Below are positions 3,659 through 37,241 of a DNA stretch of 64,000 nt, one piece after another. Numbering within the stretch: the stretch's first letter is position 1; each line of letters begins with the position of its first letter. The position numbers were made by a program, and so were the translations under genes. The DNA comes from Prototheca cutis (lineage: Eukaryota > Chlorophyta > Trebouxiophyceae > Chlorellales > Chlorellaceae): NCBI GenBank assembly GCA_002897115.2, contig BCIH01000002.1:577400-641399 (forward strand), written 5' to 3'. The notes beneath the pieces were generated by a model that had not been told where the DNA came from, searched no databases, and worked only from the letters and a program-made list of their open reading frames with translations.

Positions 3659-6600
3659 ATGCCTGGAACGTACGGAAGACTGCTCATCGTGGGCAAGGAG
3701 GGGGCTCCGGAAGTGGAGTTCCCTCTCGACAAGCGGACTGTCCTCATCGGACGGTGCGCGAGGGGCGCAGGCTCGCCTGGAAACGCGGTACTCTGCTCTA
3801 TTGCGCTTTGTCCAACCACATTTCAACCCGATATATGCGCTCGGTTGCTGCAGGGACCAGTCGTGTGACATTTGGATTCGAAATCGGACCATCTCTCGCA
3901 AGCACGCCGAGGTCTTCGTCGACGATGCTGGCTCGGTGCGGCCCCTCAATTGGACTGCTTCTTCTTTTCATGGCATGCCTCATGTGTTTACAGCGTGTTA
4001 TGTACGCGGATCATGAGACGATGGCACACCTGGCCCCCTGGACATGCAGGTGTTCATCAACAGCCTGGGCCAGGACCCCATTACTCTCAACTCCAGGCCA
4101 GTGAACAGCCCCCAGGAGCTATTCACGGGGGACCGCATCGAGGTCAGGCTGGATGACCGCGTGCGCACCTTTTTCTTCCAGGGCGACGAGGAGACCATCA
4201 AAATCCAGGGGGCATTCAGGCCTTTGCAGGACAGCAATGTGCCACGCCCCAGCCCCGCCAAGCCGGCCTCTGCCCGCAAGCGGGGCCGTCAATCCATTGG
4301 CAAAGAGGACGTGGCGCCCTCGCCGGCAAAGCCTGCCGCAAAAAAAGGTGGAACAGGTCCGCCGCCACCACCGCCGCCGCCACCACCCCGTGGGCTGCCG
4401 GGCCCCCAGCGCAAGGTGCTGACGGTGCCACCAAAGCCACAGCAGCAGCAGGTGGGAGCCAGTCGGACGGTGACATCAGCGCCGGCGCACTCGGGCCGGT
4501 TTGTTCCCAGCGTGGAGCAGCTGCAGGCTCTGAAAGCCGGTCTGCGCAGATCGGCGGGAGCTGCGCCAGCGGGGGATGACTCTGCTCAGGAGACCCCCAA
4601 GAAGAGAAACAAGGCTCCCAGTCCCCCCAGCACCTCGCGCAGGGCTTCTGGGGGCAGCCCCAACGCCCAGCAGCACCAGCCGAGCAGTTCGGCTGTTGCA
4701 TCCCGAAAGATGACTCCAAGCCGTGGCGGATCGTCGCCAAAGACCGTGGCGGCGGAAGCATCGCGGCCGAGCTCCGGTCAGCCGATTCCAGCGGCCGGGA
4801 GCCCGCCGGGCACCGGCAAGGGCAGCCGGCGCAAGAGCGTGCGGTTCCAGCACGCAGTCGCGGCTCCTTCTGTGACCTGGGCATCGCCAGAGCGCGGCGG
4901 TCGTCCTCATGCGGGAACGCCCGAGGGCGCAGGGCTGATGGAGCCAACCATGACGCTGCGCCTGCGCCGGGCGGCGATGCACGGGGAGCTGCAGGTAGAG
5001 GTTGGCGGGGACACGGTGGCCCTTCGAGACTGGGGATTTGCCAGCATGCCGGCTGCGGTGTATGTCGGGGGGGCTGGCGGCGGCCGTCCTGAGAGTCATG
5101 TCGAGGGTGCTCCTGTGGTCGACTCATCGGAGGGTCCCGCTGCAGCGGCAGCTGTGCCACCACTTGCCCTGACCTACGGGTCTACAACTGGCGGGGAGGC
5201 GATGATGGTGGTGGCACCATTGGCCATCGAACCGACGGCCGCCCAAGAAGAAGCTGCTATCGAAGATGCTGCGGTAACCAATGAAGAAGCAGCTGTGGAG
5301 GAGGACGAAACGGCTCCGGAGACTGCCACCATCGATGTGACGATGGGCATGTGGCCGACCCCAGTGGATCATCAAACAGCACCTGCCCACCCTTGGACGG
5401 GTGGCACGGTGGAGGGCCTGGGTTCGCCCAGCGTGCCCGTGCATTTTGCCACGCCCACGCCCGTCCGGCTGTCGGGGGGGGGCGGGGAGAACCCCCACGC
5501 TTCGCTCGATTCTGGGGTCACGGCCGGGACGGTCAGACCCGGAACCGTTGCCGGTGGCGGCACTCCTGCTGGGGTCACGAGCTTCCCGCCTGGGACACCC
5601 CTCACTGTTATCGCTGGAGCGACGATGACGCCGGCCACCGGGCGCAGTCGTGCTGCAGTGCCGGGTTCTGTGGGCCGTGGGACAGTGCAGACACCCGCCG
5701 CGCCGGGGTCTGCGCTCCGTGTCCCCGCGCCCACGCCGATCGGGGGGCTGAGCCTCGCAGTGGCCACCTCCCCGGTGCCACAGCGCATGCCGCTGGACGT
5801 GGCGGCTCTGGCTGCCATGCTGGAGGGCATGGTGGATTCGGCAGGCGGCGAATTGACGGTGCAGTTGACAGCCCGGCAGCTGACTGCTGACGGCGTTCTT
5901 GCGACCACGCCTGCGTCGGTCGCCAGCCGTCGGCGCTCGACTGCGACGACAGCTGCAGGGAANGTGACCGGCTCAGCAGTGCCAACGCCCGGGTCGCAGT
6001 CGGCGACGCCCCGTGTGCTCATCGTGGGCACGCCAGGTGGCATGCGCTCGGGTCGCAGCCGTCGCAGTAGCGTGACCGCAAGTCGAATGGCTGCTGCCGT
6101 GACGGCGGCTGTGGCCGAGGCTGTCGAGCAGAATACTTCTCCAGCCGTTGCTGTCTCGCCCAACACGGTTGCGACCACGGATGCCCCTGTTGACGACAGC
6201 CCACTGGCAAGTTCAATGTCCCCCGTCGAAGCGGCTGCGCCGGCTGTGCCTGCTGGCTCCGACACCCCNGCTGCTCCTGCAGCAGACACAGCGCTGTTGC
6301 CATCCACGAGCCTGGCGTCCAGCGACTCATCGGCTTCTTCCTCGTCCGGCGAAGTCATCGCGGCACTGCGGTGGGAGCTGCGACAGGCCCAGGCGGCTCG
6401 GCGCATGGCGCTGACGCGGCTCGGCCGCACTCGCACCGCACTGGCGGCCGTCCAGGCAGCACTGGTCCGTGAACGGCGCCGGCGGGCCCAACTGGAACGT
6501 GTGGTTCGCGCTGCGCTTGAGACAGAGGAGAATGCCGAGGAAGGCGAGGGAGAGCGACCTGGTGAGGCGATGGACGTCGTCGAGCACGAGCGCCACGAGT

Positions 6601-33917: not shown

Positions 33918-34794
33918 TTATCTCAGCGCATGCTGCAACGGGGAGTACGCTTGAACGTCAATAGCCGAAGGCTCGTGAGAAGCGGGGCCCTTGGAGCGAC
34001 GCCTCGCTGGCGCTGCTTGGGGTGCGGGCACACGATGCTCCATCGCTCGCTGTGCGTATGGCACCAGGGCTTGAGGCATCTGTTTTGTTCGCTGTGGAAA
34101 CACTTGGCACTCCTGGGGCGTGGGTTGCACGGTGCAGACGGACCGCGACTGGGGCAGGGGCTGTGGCAATTCCACGCGGTGTGGCCGACTGGGGTTCTCC
34201 CCCCGGCCAGAAGATGCGAGGAAGGCAGTGGACTTGACGGCCACCCTGCTGGACATGCAGCCCGTGGAATGCATGAGCTCCAGGGAGCGCCTGGGCCCAT
34301 TCTGCATCATGTTCCATGCATAGTCGTACCGAGCCAGCATCTCGCTCTCCGCGACCACTGCCTTGGTCTCCGTTTTCTGCAGCGGCAGGGACGCGAGTTG
34401 TGAGAGAGTGTGTGCATGTGAGATGAGATCAGCACTGCTTTGGTTAGGGCCATCTATGTGGCTGACATCTAGCAAGACCCCTGGCCTCCTCAGGGCACAG
34501 CGTTCACCACACGTCGTGGCAGCTCCGCGACGAACCCCCCCCACCCAACATCCCCCAAAACGTACAAAGTATTTGATGCGGCGCATCACCAAATACGAGT
34601 GCTGGACGGCAGACTGCAGCAGGCCTGCAATGTGGGACGAGCCACCGGCGTGGCTGGCCTGCCGCCGCTGCATGTTCACGGCGCGCCCGACGTACCATGC
34701 AGGGCAAAAATAATGCAACCAGCTCAGCCAGCAACAGCGCCACATCACCCCGGGGGTTGCTGGGCATCACGGATGGCCCGAAAATTTTCACACT
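33918..34794 (-). CDS. 3' exons of an unrecognised gene next to the Fanzor
   Basis: Three phase-0 exons (34720-34794, 34566-34667, 33918-34376) are joined by good splice sites (CTGCAG/AGT; TTT/GTACGT...CTGCAG/AAA). Codon use is GC3-rich in the first two. The protein reads SVKIFGPSVMPSNPRGDVAL, then a helix with LLQSAVQHSYLVMRRIKYF, then KTETKAVVAESEMLARYDY and AWNMMQNGPRRSLELMHSTG, followed by a Pro/Gln/Arg-rich tail to TAA. I do not recognise the family. No ATG exon is visible: upstream in the sense direction lie the hairpins and the Fanzor. Either the 5' exons are beyond the element, or the gene was truncated. Confidence 0.5.
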
Positions 34795-34841
34795 CTGCAG
34801 GGCAATAGGAAGGTGGACCACCGCAATGATGGACCACCTCC

Positions 34842-34957
34842 GGGGCTGTTTTCCCTTCCCGGGGCAACGAGCCCAGGGTTCCTTGCCCCAGAAAGGGAGC
34901 CCCCAGGGTTTCGACCCCCGGGGCTGCTTTCCCTTNCCGGGGAAGGGAAGGAGCCCC
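34842..34957 (-). ncRNA. Candidate Fanzor guide-RNA scaffold (tandem hairpins)
   Basis: In the sense direction of the Fanzor, two related stem-loops follow the TAA stop. The first (34957 to 34920) pairs GGGGCT with AGCCCC and TTCCCTT with AAGGGAA around a 7-base loop. The second (34903 to 34842) pairs GGGGCT/AGCCCC, CCCTT/AAGGG and GGGGCAA/TTGCCCC. Both end with almost the same 3' arm (AAGGGAA, two bases, CAGCCCC), so one is probably a duplicate of the other. TnpB and Fanzor guide RNAs are transcribed from the 3' side of the nuclease gene and are structured, which fits. Direct proof is absent. A transcription or mRNA-stability element is the main alternative. Confidence 0.38.
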
Positions 34958-35004
34958 AGGAGTTCCCACCCCCGTTGGAAGGCTATAACCTCCCAGGATG
35001 GATT

Positions 35005-35651
35005 TTACTGCGGCGCTGGGCGCTGGAAGCGCTCCGGCCGCTTGCCGGTCTTCCGCAGGTGCTNCACGATGTGCCTCATGTTCAGACACGCCATCAAGTC
35101 TCTGTTCCAGAGACGATGCTCGCCGTTCGGGGGGCGGCACTTCTCGTTGGTGCAGCGCAGCAGCCCGTGGCACACCACNTCGGGCGTCTGCTCCCTGCGG
35201 TACGGGCGTGGGTTGGGCACGCGGAGGAACGTCTCCACCGTGCACTCCTCGTGTTTGCAGGCCGGGCAGCGCTTGGAGGTGCGGAACTCGTCGATGAGCA
35301 CGACGTTGAACCCCGCCTTGACCAGCGCCCGCAGCAGCCCCACGTGTGGCATCGGCTCGTGGNAGCGTGCCGNGCCCGGCGAGCAGTCGCCGACGACCAG
35401 CGTCGCGCCGTTCGCAAACTTGCGCAGGCGCGCGATGACCNCNGCGTAGGCCTTTTGCCGGTAAATGTACGCCCAAAGACGGAGCTTCCGGAAGATGGGC
35501 TTGGCATAGTGCTTGCTGAGCGTCGCCTCGACTTGGCCGAACACGCACAGGTACGCCAAGAAGTCCGCCACAGTGCAGGCCTTGTTCCCGTTGGGCGCCT
35601 CGGCGGCCAGGCGCTGCAGGGCCTTCCGCACGCCCTTGGTCATGAGCCTCT
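35005..35651 (-). CDS. Fanzor (eukaryotic TnpB-like RNA-guided nuclease), C-terminal part
   Basis: About 215 residues from the gap edge to TAA at 35005-35007. Order of motifs: KLRLWAYIYRQKAY helix; LVVGDCSPG at the RuvC-II strand (the usual Glu is Gly); GLLRALVKAGFNVVLIDEFR with the alternative Glu; TSKRCPAC...LLRCTNEKC zinc finger; LWNRDLMACLNMRHI with the RuvC-III Asp; then RPERFQR. DEFRTS followed by CxxC, then a cysteine pair and NRD, is diagnostic of Fanzors, the eukaryotic relatives of TnpB that cut DNA guided by an RNA made next to the gene. The N-terminal half, including the RuvC-I Asp, lies in or beyond the assembly gap. Six N bases fall in the frame, with no stop or frameshift seen. 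High GC3 agrees with the host genome, so this is not a recent bacterial contaminant. Confidence 0.9.
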
Positions 35652-36475
35652 NNNNNNNNNNNNNNNNNNNNNNNNNNNNNNNNNNNNNNNNNNNNNNNNN
35701 NNNNNNNNNNNNNNNNNNNNNNNNNNNNNNNNNNNNNNNNNNNNNNNNNNNNNNNNNNNNNNNNNNNNNNNNNNNNNNNNNNNNNNNNNNNNNNNNNNNN
35801 NNNNNNNNNNNNNNNNNNNNNNNNNNNNNNNNNNNNNNNNNNNNNNNNNNNNNNNNNNNNNNNNNNNNNNNNNNNNNNNNNNNNNNNNNNNNNNNNNNNN
35901 NNNNNNNNNNNNNNNNNNNNNNNNNNNNNNNNNNNNNNNNNNNNNNNNNNNNNNNNNNNNNNNNNNNNNNNNNNNNNNNNNNNNNNNNNNNNNNNNNNNN
36001 NNNNNNNNNNNNNNNNNNNNNNNNNNNNNNNNNNNNNNNNNNNNNNNNNNNNNNNNNNNNNNNNNNNNNNNNNNNNNNNNNNNNNNNNNNNNNNNNNNNN
36101 NNNNNNNNNNNNNNNNNNNNNNNNNNNNNNNNNNNNNNNNNNNNNNNNNNNNNNNNNNNNNNNNNNNNNNNNNNNNNNNNNNNNNNNNNNNNNNNNNNNN
36201 NNNNNNNNNNNNNNNNNNNNNNNNNNNNNNNNNNNNNNNNNNNNNNNNNNNNNNNNNNNNNNNNNNNNNNNNNNNNNNNNNNNNNNNNNNNNNNNNNNNN
36301 NNNNNNNNNNNNNNNNNNNNNNNNNNNNNNNNNNNNNNNNNNNNNNNNNNNNNNNNNNNNNNNNNNNNNNNNNNNNNNNNNNNNNNNNNNNNNNNNNNNN
36401 NNNNNNNNNNNNNNNNNNNNNNNNNNNNNNNNNNNNNNNNNNNNNNNNNNNNNNNNNNNNNNNNNNNNNNNNNNN
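35652..36475. other. Assembly gap (824 N)
   Basis: Run of N inside the Fanzor gene. The true length is unknown, so continuity of reading frames across it means nothing. Confidence 0.99.
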
Positions 36476-36533
36476 CGGCCGTAAAGACGCCCTTGAGCAC
36501 CTCCCGCCCGCGGCCCCAAAAGTCGCGGTCCAT
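36476..36533 (-). other. Probable N-terminal Fanzor-side fragment
   Basis: Directly upstream of the gap in the sense direction, an open frame from ATG 36533 reads MDRDFWGRGREVLKGVFTA and runs into the N stretch. Its frame relation to the C-terminal half cannot be judged. It resembles the module at 36703-36837, so both are probably copies of the same element segment. Confidence 0.4.
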
Positions 36534-36702
36534 CGACCTTGCAATCCTGCCTGCTGTAATAATGGGCGATGGATTGGGCAGGCCGGCGTGAGGTCTCCCA
36601 CCTTCGGCACCTTCTGTTGGGGGGCCGTTAGAATGCCAACGCGCACGGGACAGCACCGCCTTCCAGAACGGGAACTCACGAGTTGATGTCGACCTGGCTC
36701 TC

Positions 36703-36837
36703 CTATTCGTCCAGAAGACCGTGGAACCTGCGCTGCCAGATCGCACGCACCGACGCCTTGACGGTCGTCATGGCGTTTTGGTGCGCCTCCCGCCCGCTAC
36801 CCCAAAAGTTGCGGGCCATTCGCTTTGCACCCGTCAT
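36703..36837 (-). pseudogene. Second, truncated copy of the upstream module
   Basis: A 44-codon frame (ATG 36837 to TAG 36703) reads MTGAKRMARNFWGSGREAHQ, then KASVRAIWQRRFHG, then stop. Its first half matches the fragment at 36476-36533 (FWGxGRE, with similar bases on both sides of it). About 50 bases at 36783-36837 align with 36494-36550 at roughly 80% by eye. It is likely a decayed tandem duplicate of the element's 5' part. Confidence 0.4.
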
Positions 36838-37241
36838 TGTAATGGGTGCATGAAATAGATAGGTCAGCGGGGAGTCCCCGTGTGTTGTACCGACTTCCCA
36901 CTGGCCGACCCGCCTCGGGAAACCTGGTGTCGTGCCAGGGTCAATTTCCAGGATTTTCTAAAGCCTCCTTGCACGACCTGTCCTGCTGCCAAGAAGGAGC
37001 CCAGCCCATTCTCTGAGCGATGTGGCCAGGGAATGCGGTCCAACAGGCATTTTGGGAGACAGGCCCTTGCTGTGCAGATGGGAGGCAACGAATCTCGAGA
37101 AGGTTTCATCATTTTCTGCCTTTACTGTAAACCTTGAATCTGTACGAGACGTGATTGGGTTATGTCGGGCCGGGAGCGCGTGGGCATTGGATGTTGCTAC
37201 AGATGCACTTTCAAATACCCCCAAAAATGGGATCTGCGGGA
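36838..37241. other. No gene seen between Fanzor modules and the GIY exon
   Basis: About 400 bases. No splice-consistent exon was found. If an intron links the GIY-type exon to downstream exons, its 5' part would be here. Confidence 0.4.

Follow-up and report, generated by a model that had tools for sequence, protein, structure and literature searches.

The window analysed here, a 64,000-nucleotide stretch of Prototheca cutis DNA (contig BCIH01000002.1, positions 577,400 to 641,399), carries on its minus strand a reading frame of 214 residues (35651-35005, with X solely at N bases) that, judged from its sequence, encodes the C-terminal half of a Fanzor1 protein. The frame is probably the 3′ half of a Fanzor1 gene within an abundant, TA-bounded, inverted-repeat transposon that works in the manner of Spu-1 of Spizellomyces punctatus. 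This reading joins what we observe directly (the protein family, the RuvC domain with an alternative catalytic Glu (Ealt), where the element begins and ends, its minimum copy number and its deletion derivatives) to a remainder inferred from studied Fanzors. The features of the window copy are collected in Table 1.

Table 1. Features of the Fanzor transposon copy in the window (positions in the window)
Feature	Position	Strand	Basis or remark
Entire Fanzor transposon, from 37129 (left) to 34693 (right)	34693..37129	minus	2437 bases including 824 N; ends set by comparison with other copies
Left terminal inverted repeat, imperfect, begins TACAGTAAAGGCAG	37102..37129	minus	copy comparison
Imperfect terminal inverted repeat at the right end, final letters TTTTTGCCCTGCATGGTA	34693..34720	minus	copy comparison
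C-terminal half of Fanzor1 protein	35005..35651	minus	stop TAA at 35007-35005
RuvC-II strand VVGDCS, lacking Glu at the canonical TnpB position	35380..35397	minus	alignments
Probable alternative catalytic Glu, E of DEFRTS (DEFRTS begins 35292)	35287..35289	minus	alignments
First zinc-ribbon Cys pair, CPAC	35257..35268	minus	read from sequence
Second Cys pair, CTNEKC	35137..35154	minus	read from sequence
RuvC-III Asp, D of WNRD (WNRD begins 35109)	35098..35100	minus	aligned with SpuFz1 D606
Assembly gap, 824 N	35652..36475		counterpart in L038, a sister copy, is about 1.8 kb and includes the RuvC-I Asp codon
Putative omega-RNA scaffold, the 152 bases that close the right end	34693..34844	minus	predicted fold; retention in short copies
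Flank outside right end, putative guide	34673..34692	minus	by analogy with Spu-1 (PMC10432273)
Flank outside left end	37130..37149	minus	TT before TA, so no TS-TA bias in the window copy

The Fanzor1 frame and its RuvC active site

Among solved structures, the three best relatives of the window protein found by phmmer are PpFz1 (5.6e-33), SpuFz1 (1.2e-22) and, weakly, GtFz1 (0.007). The zinc ribbon (CPAC and CTNEKC) and the RuvC-III Asp (in WNRD) are present; indeed, every motif that the initial annotation had quoted as a Fanzor hallmark is found where it was placed on the minus-strand frame, although NRD and RPERF, while both there, are merely ordinary motifs of the family. The only Pfam and NCBIfam models matched by the window protein are Cas12f1-like_TNB and guided_TnpB. 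These two weak matches could be taken to indicate a TnpB or Cas12-type RuvC protein instead of a Fanzor, which is very improbable given that both fall short of the curated cut-offs, that Fanzor1 structures are the best matches by sequence and by fold, and that the protein combines the Ealt arrangement with a eukaryotic host and an inverted-repeat transposon. We assign it to Fanzor1 rather than Fanzor2, as it is nearest to Fanzor1 proteins and is carried by an inverted-repeat eukaryotic transposon.

Using the matching region of a sister copy as query, we collected 30 homologues at E ≤ 0.001, the nearest of which, P0003, is 72% identical and lies on a short contig. The predicted fold of P0003 has PpFz1 and SpuFz1 as its best structural matches in Foldseek, placing it with modest confidence nearest to the solved Fanzor1 structures (mean predicted local distance difference test score 70.2; overall root-mean-square deviation high, 17-21 Å). 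P0003 reads WGRN in place of the WNRD of the window protein, so that its third catalytic residue is an Asn, as has been reported for GtFz1 (PMC11423790). No viral relative was confirmed in viral_contigs (query P0003), and none was found in the phage collection (query P0001).

The initial annotation had drawn attention to a rearranged RuvC active site. The canonical Glu is indeed missing from the RuvC-II strand VVGDCS, and DEFRTSKRCPAC in the window protein holds an alternative Glu, that of DEFRTS, six residues ahead of CxxC. This Glu is invariant in 24/24 aligned homologues (picked from the 30, with the window protein left out), as are the G of GDCS/GNWS, the T and S of DEFRTS and both Cys of the first pair, while conservation of the RuvC-I and RuvC-III Asp reaches 90% or more; a second alignment, which includes the window protein, also has the Glu invariant (9/9). 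In the phmmer alignment, this Glu and the Asp of WNRD align with SpuFz1 chain residues 935 and 1000, which are E541 and D606 (tag offset 394, fixed by D606), both described as assisting in the holding of magnesium. Furthermore, Yoon et al. give as the Fanzor signature DPG together with an Ealt placed six residues ahead of the zinc finger (PMC10711439). Because the invariance of the Glu, its alignment with E541 and the published signature agree, the rearrangement is the family rule. The DEFRTS Glu is very probably the catalytic replacement, as the initial annotation had expected for Fanzors in general. By the same alignments, the "rearranged" RuvC is the normal Fanzor arrangement with nothing new in the active site, and it does not set this locus apart.

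The TA-bounded element, its copies and its short derivatives

Comparison of copies reveals sharp ends. Left ends are mostly TAC-initial, in two variants, right ends close with the same letters as the window copy, and together they form an imperfect inverted pair bounded by TA, which is found at 34/36 left ends and 33/40 right ends. An element of the IS200/IS605 or IS607 class is ruled out by the terminal inverted repeats, which these classes are defined by lacking (PMC3627910). Two family searches of the genome gave no DDE_3 or DDE_1 transposase match, with controls that gave matches in just 3 and 1 of 14 named genomes; Transposase_1 (mariner) was not searched, and introns could hide a gene. 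Four copies (L028, L053, L059 and L110) are inserted head to head with another copy, at precisely the TA of its left end, and the left end hosting them reads ACTGTA or AATGTA outwards.

The copy count that the initial annotation had suggested gives at least 152 protein matches in the 19.9-Mb genome at E ≤ 10 (those listed have E ≤ 3.5e-18), a lower bound with 150 of 287 candidates scored, and 279 places for a 35-base right-end pattern at up to 3 mismatches, with 0 for the reversed control. Most of the listed protein matches span just the last 45-90 residues. A left-end pattern was found at 105 places (control 0), at least 4 of the listed ones being right ends read backwards, whereas a left-end DNA search, in which common words are skipped, was without result.

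Those short copies that we examined measure about 640, 365 or 115 bp and retain the right end, which is the part of the element in which Fanzors encode their guide RNA. We mapped 25 short or partial copies (20 hand-picked from the protein-match list, plus loci L026-L030), a sample that favours a retained coding tail because it was found through a protein search. Of these, 21 fuse about 160 bases of the left end to the final 500-535 bases of the element, and the remaining 4 have more of the internal sequence. The right breakpoint of this ~640-bp class lies near 5470 in 14 copies and near 5495 in 7 (L038 coordinates). The ~365-bp class joins 200 bases of the left end to the last 146 bases (8/8 fetched, selected for that spacing), and at least 18 end pairs with this spacing were counted by eye among the listed places. 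Three elements of 112-122 bp (L147, L148 and L149) are each a pair of inverted right ends. From the copies found through the protein it first seemed that derivatives cannot do without the final 500 bases; this was dropped, as the 365-bp copies hold 146 and the 112-122 bp copies are two right ends.

We also considered whether the short copies keep the tail as coding sequence, and set this aside. The 21 short derivatives deviate by 0.103, 0.074 and 0.095 at codon positions 1, 2 and 3, and their consensus is without a stop codon; with no third-position excess and the stop lost, the tail does not look coding. The least variable of six tail blocks in these non-coding copies (0.027 vs 0.058-0.197 for the others) is L038 5578-5613, about 35078-35113 in the window, which holds most of the inverted repeat GTCTCTGGAACAGAGAC.

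In coding copies, the ratio of mean dN (nonsynonymous divergence) to mean dS (synonymous divergence) is 0.38 over the last 214 codons of 10 copies, the window copy included, and 0.47 when the more diverged L041 is added; by this measure, the Fanzor family is under purifying selection. The gap-free sister copy L038, about 3.4 kb long, reads through RuvC-I, and its frame has a glycine/arginine-rich linker that it shares with P0003 and that is missing from seven other aligned homologues. An N-terminal exon seemed likely by eye, and tblastn gave no confirmation. Scanning 20 loci for the RuvC-I motif, we read IDPG in 8 and IDPS in 1; the remaining 11, with a gap or no match to the pattern, take in the window locus as well as three from other Fanzor families.

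The state of the window copy itself is less certain. The initial annotation had held that the frame has no lesion apart from N bases, which is borne out for the visible half, where there is no stop or frameshift; the gap hides RuvC-I and everything before it. The chance is only a little under even that this copy is a dead, internally deleted relic whose visible frame is intact through recency alone. The 824 N stand where about 1.8 kb is expected, which could mean either an internal deletion or an arbitrary gap length; shortened copies make up most of the listed genome matches, and the left flank of the window copy is TT-TA. Against this, the uninterrupted visible half is 94% identical to its best sister match, and gap length is a poor guide because the N-gaps of sister copies deviate from the expected length in both directions.

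Flank bias at insertion sites and the right end as putative omega-RNA

We compared the bases outside the two ends in three samples each, for the left flanks of 36, 40 and 28 (22 new) and for the right flanks of 40, 36 and 28 (26 new, two misread and dropped), which give 96 and 100 sites after counting repeats once (L053, L059 and L110, for example, share one flank). G or C (S) precedes the TA in 88/96 left and 65/100 right flanks (p=5e-6), TS in 62/96 and 34/100 (p=3e-5) and TG in 53/96 and 24/100 (p=1e-5). The third sample alone behaves in the same way, with TG in 17/22 left vs 6/24 right (p=9e-4) and TS in 18/22 vs 11/24 (p=0.016). These sites are not fully independent because some insertions are nested (L028, L053, L059 and L110). 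As a background, TS precedes 16.6% of 967 TA sites in the window. A purely one-sided flank motif was weakened as a candidate by the second right-end sample (C 19/36, A 17/36).

By analogy with Spu-1, the left-flank bias is perhaps the genomic footprint of a target-adjacent motif (TAM), with transposase preference contributing. For Spu-1, Saito et al. report 42 loci with Fanzor and 134 ghost loci, both with CA before the left repeat, together with a TAM of CATA and an omega-RNA that derives from the right end and whose 3′ part is flank (PMC10432273). A serious alternative, to which we give somewhat less than an even chance, is that the bias reflects an intrinsic preference of the transposase holding the left end and is silent on any Fanzor TAM. 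The same letters are indeed favoured on both sides, TG before TA on the left and, more weakly, CA after TA on the right. In addition, left and right ends do not have the same sequence, which would allow a transposase to distinguish between them, and the left ends sampled all come from elements with the putative omega-RNA region. However, near-symmetric repeats predict equal sides, contrary to the TS counts above, and in Spu-1 the left-flank dinucleotide plus TA is the measured TAM.

The right end is a candidate source of such an RNA. Its 152-base segment is retained in 8/8 365-bp copies and 20/21 640-bp copies (L066 being a partial match), and the consensus of the last 150 bases from 44 copies has a predicted folding energy of -65.0 kcal/mol vs -47.8 (standard deviation 3.8) for shuffles (z -4.5), with the terminal repeat contributing part of the pairing. 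Among known RNA families, two matches were obtained, both far under threshold.

Extending the Spu-1 model to the algal element, the right end would be transcribed into an omega-RNA running past the element into the flank, and each copy would thus carry the sequence beside its own right end as a guide. The Fanzor-RNA complex would then cut an unoccupied version of the same site, given a TAM in front of it, predicted to be T-G/C-T-A with the insertion-site TA as its last two bases, and repair from the occupied copy would restore or spread the element. Cut-and-paste would presumably depend on a transposase acting in trans, none having been found in the DDE_3 and DDE_1 searches. The short derivatives could be served in trans because they are protein-less and yet keep the right end. 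On this analogy we tentatively suggest, as a possibility rather than the expectation, that copies persist or spread mainly where T-S-T-A precedes the left end, since the shared Fanzor would recut the empty site only there, that protein-less copies are driven in trans, and that the family as a whole may form a genome-wide guide library. The role of Fanzors for their transposons is still an open question in the field; a high-copy family with sharp ends, several protein-less classes and a flank bias that is stronger on one side offers a system for testing the homing idea, and the flank bias yields a testable TAM prediction for an algal Fanzor family.

Several observations weigh against this Spu-1-like reading. 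The consensus pairs of the right end are kept in 95.6% of cells vs 95.4% in column shuffles, and there are 3 compensatory cells, where shuffles average 0.9 and reach at most 5; with so few compensatory changes and pairing close to that of shuffles, structure conservation of the right end is not proved. The double-right-end elements of 112-122 bp (3 seen) hint that mobility needs less than the whole right-end segment. TS-TA exceeds the background in the right flanks too (34/100 vs 16.6%, p=2e-5), so that a symmetric target preference, probably of the transposase, underlies the left excess. The TA target duplication is putative, being read from occupied sites alone. In the window copy itself, TT precedes the left-end TA and the RuvC-I Asp falls in the gap, unseen.

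Known systems, other Fanzor families and the host

Like Spu-1 with its protein SpuFz1, the algal element is Fanzor1-only and has terminal inverted repeats and TA ends (PMC10432273, PMC3627910), and it shares with Spu-1 many protein-less copies keeping the right end and a biased dinucleotide before the left-end TA. It differs in preferring TG/TC where Spu-1 has CA, in having at least three derivative size classes and in its green-algal host, and its homologue P0003 is 26% identical to SpuFz1 in the structural alignment. By its ends, size classes and flank bias, the algal family is a new instance of the Spu-1 type. PpFz1 of Parasitella parasitica (9cf0-9cf3; PMC11423790) is the nearest solved protein by sequence and Foldseek and has the same Ealt and NRD motifs; unlike the algal protein, it comes from a fungal host and has a measured TAM, ATN. 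Bao and Jurka (PMC3627910) described elements that encode Fanzor1 alone and have both inverted repeats and TA duplications, and Fanzor1 in Tc1/mariner elements such as PUl-4 resembles the present family, by description, in being Fanzor-only with those same features; in the algal genome, the DDE_3 and DDE_1 searches described above gave no match. Among the papers that came up, none was recognised as describing the algal family. One report mentions, as the most abundant repeat of the related green alga Auxenochlorella, an uncharacterised Fanzor-encoding element (PMC12633428), which we liken to ours by description alone.

The genome contains further Fanzor families. A second, at L044 and L045 (C4:1441500-1456500), has about 68-71% protein identity; its three copies lie inside a stretch of about 8 kb, two in one orientation and one in the other. 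A third and more distant Fanzor, L046 (C2:1185800-1193600), is 45-62% identical, varying with the alignment used, and a short copy of the main family is inserted downstream of it in reverse. No line-up of the right ends of the L044-L046 families with that of the main family was achieved.

An exon-by-exon search of the genome gave no chlorophyll a/b-binding protein match, its sole positive control being a cyanobacterium; this suggests, without proving it, a non-photosynthetic alga such as Prototheca. In the window, the frame for lysyl-tRNA synthetase has its closest match in Auxenochlorella (67%), followed by other green algae.
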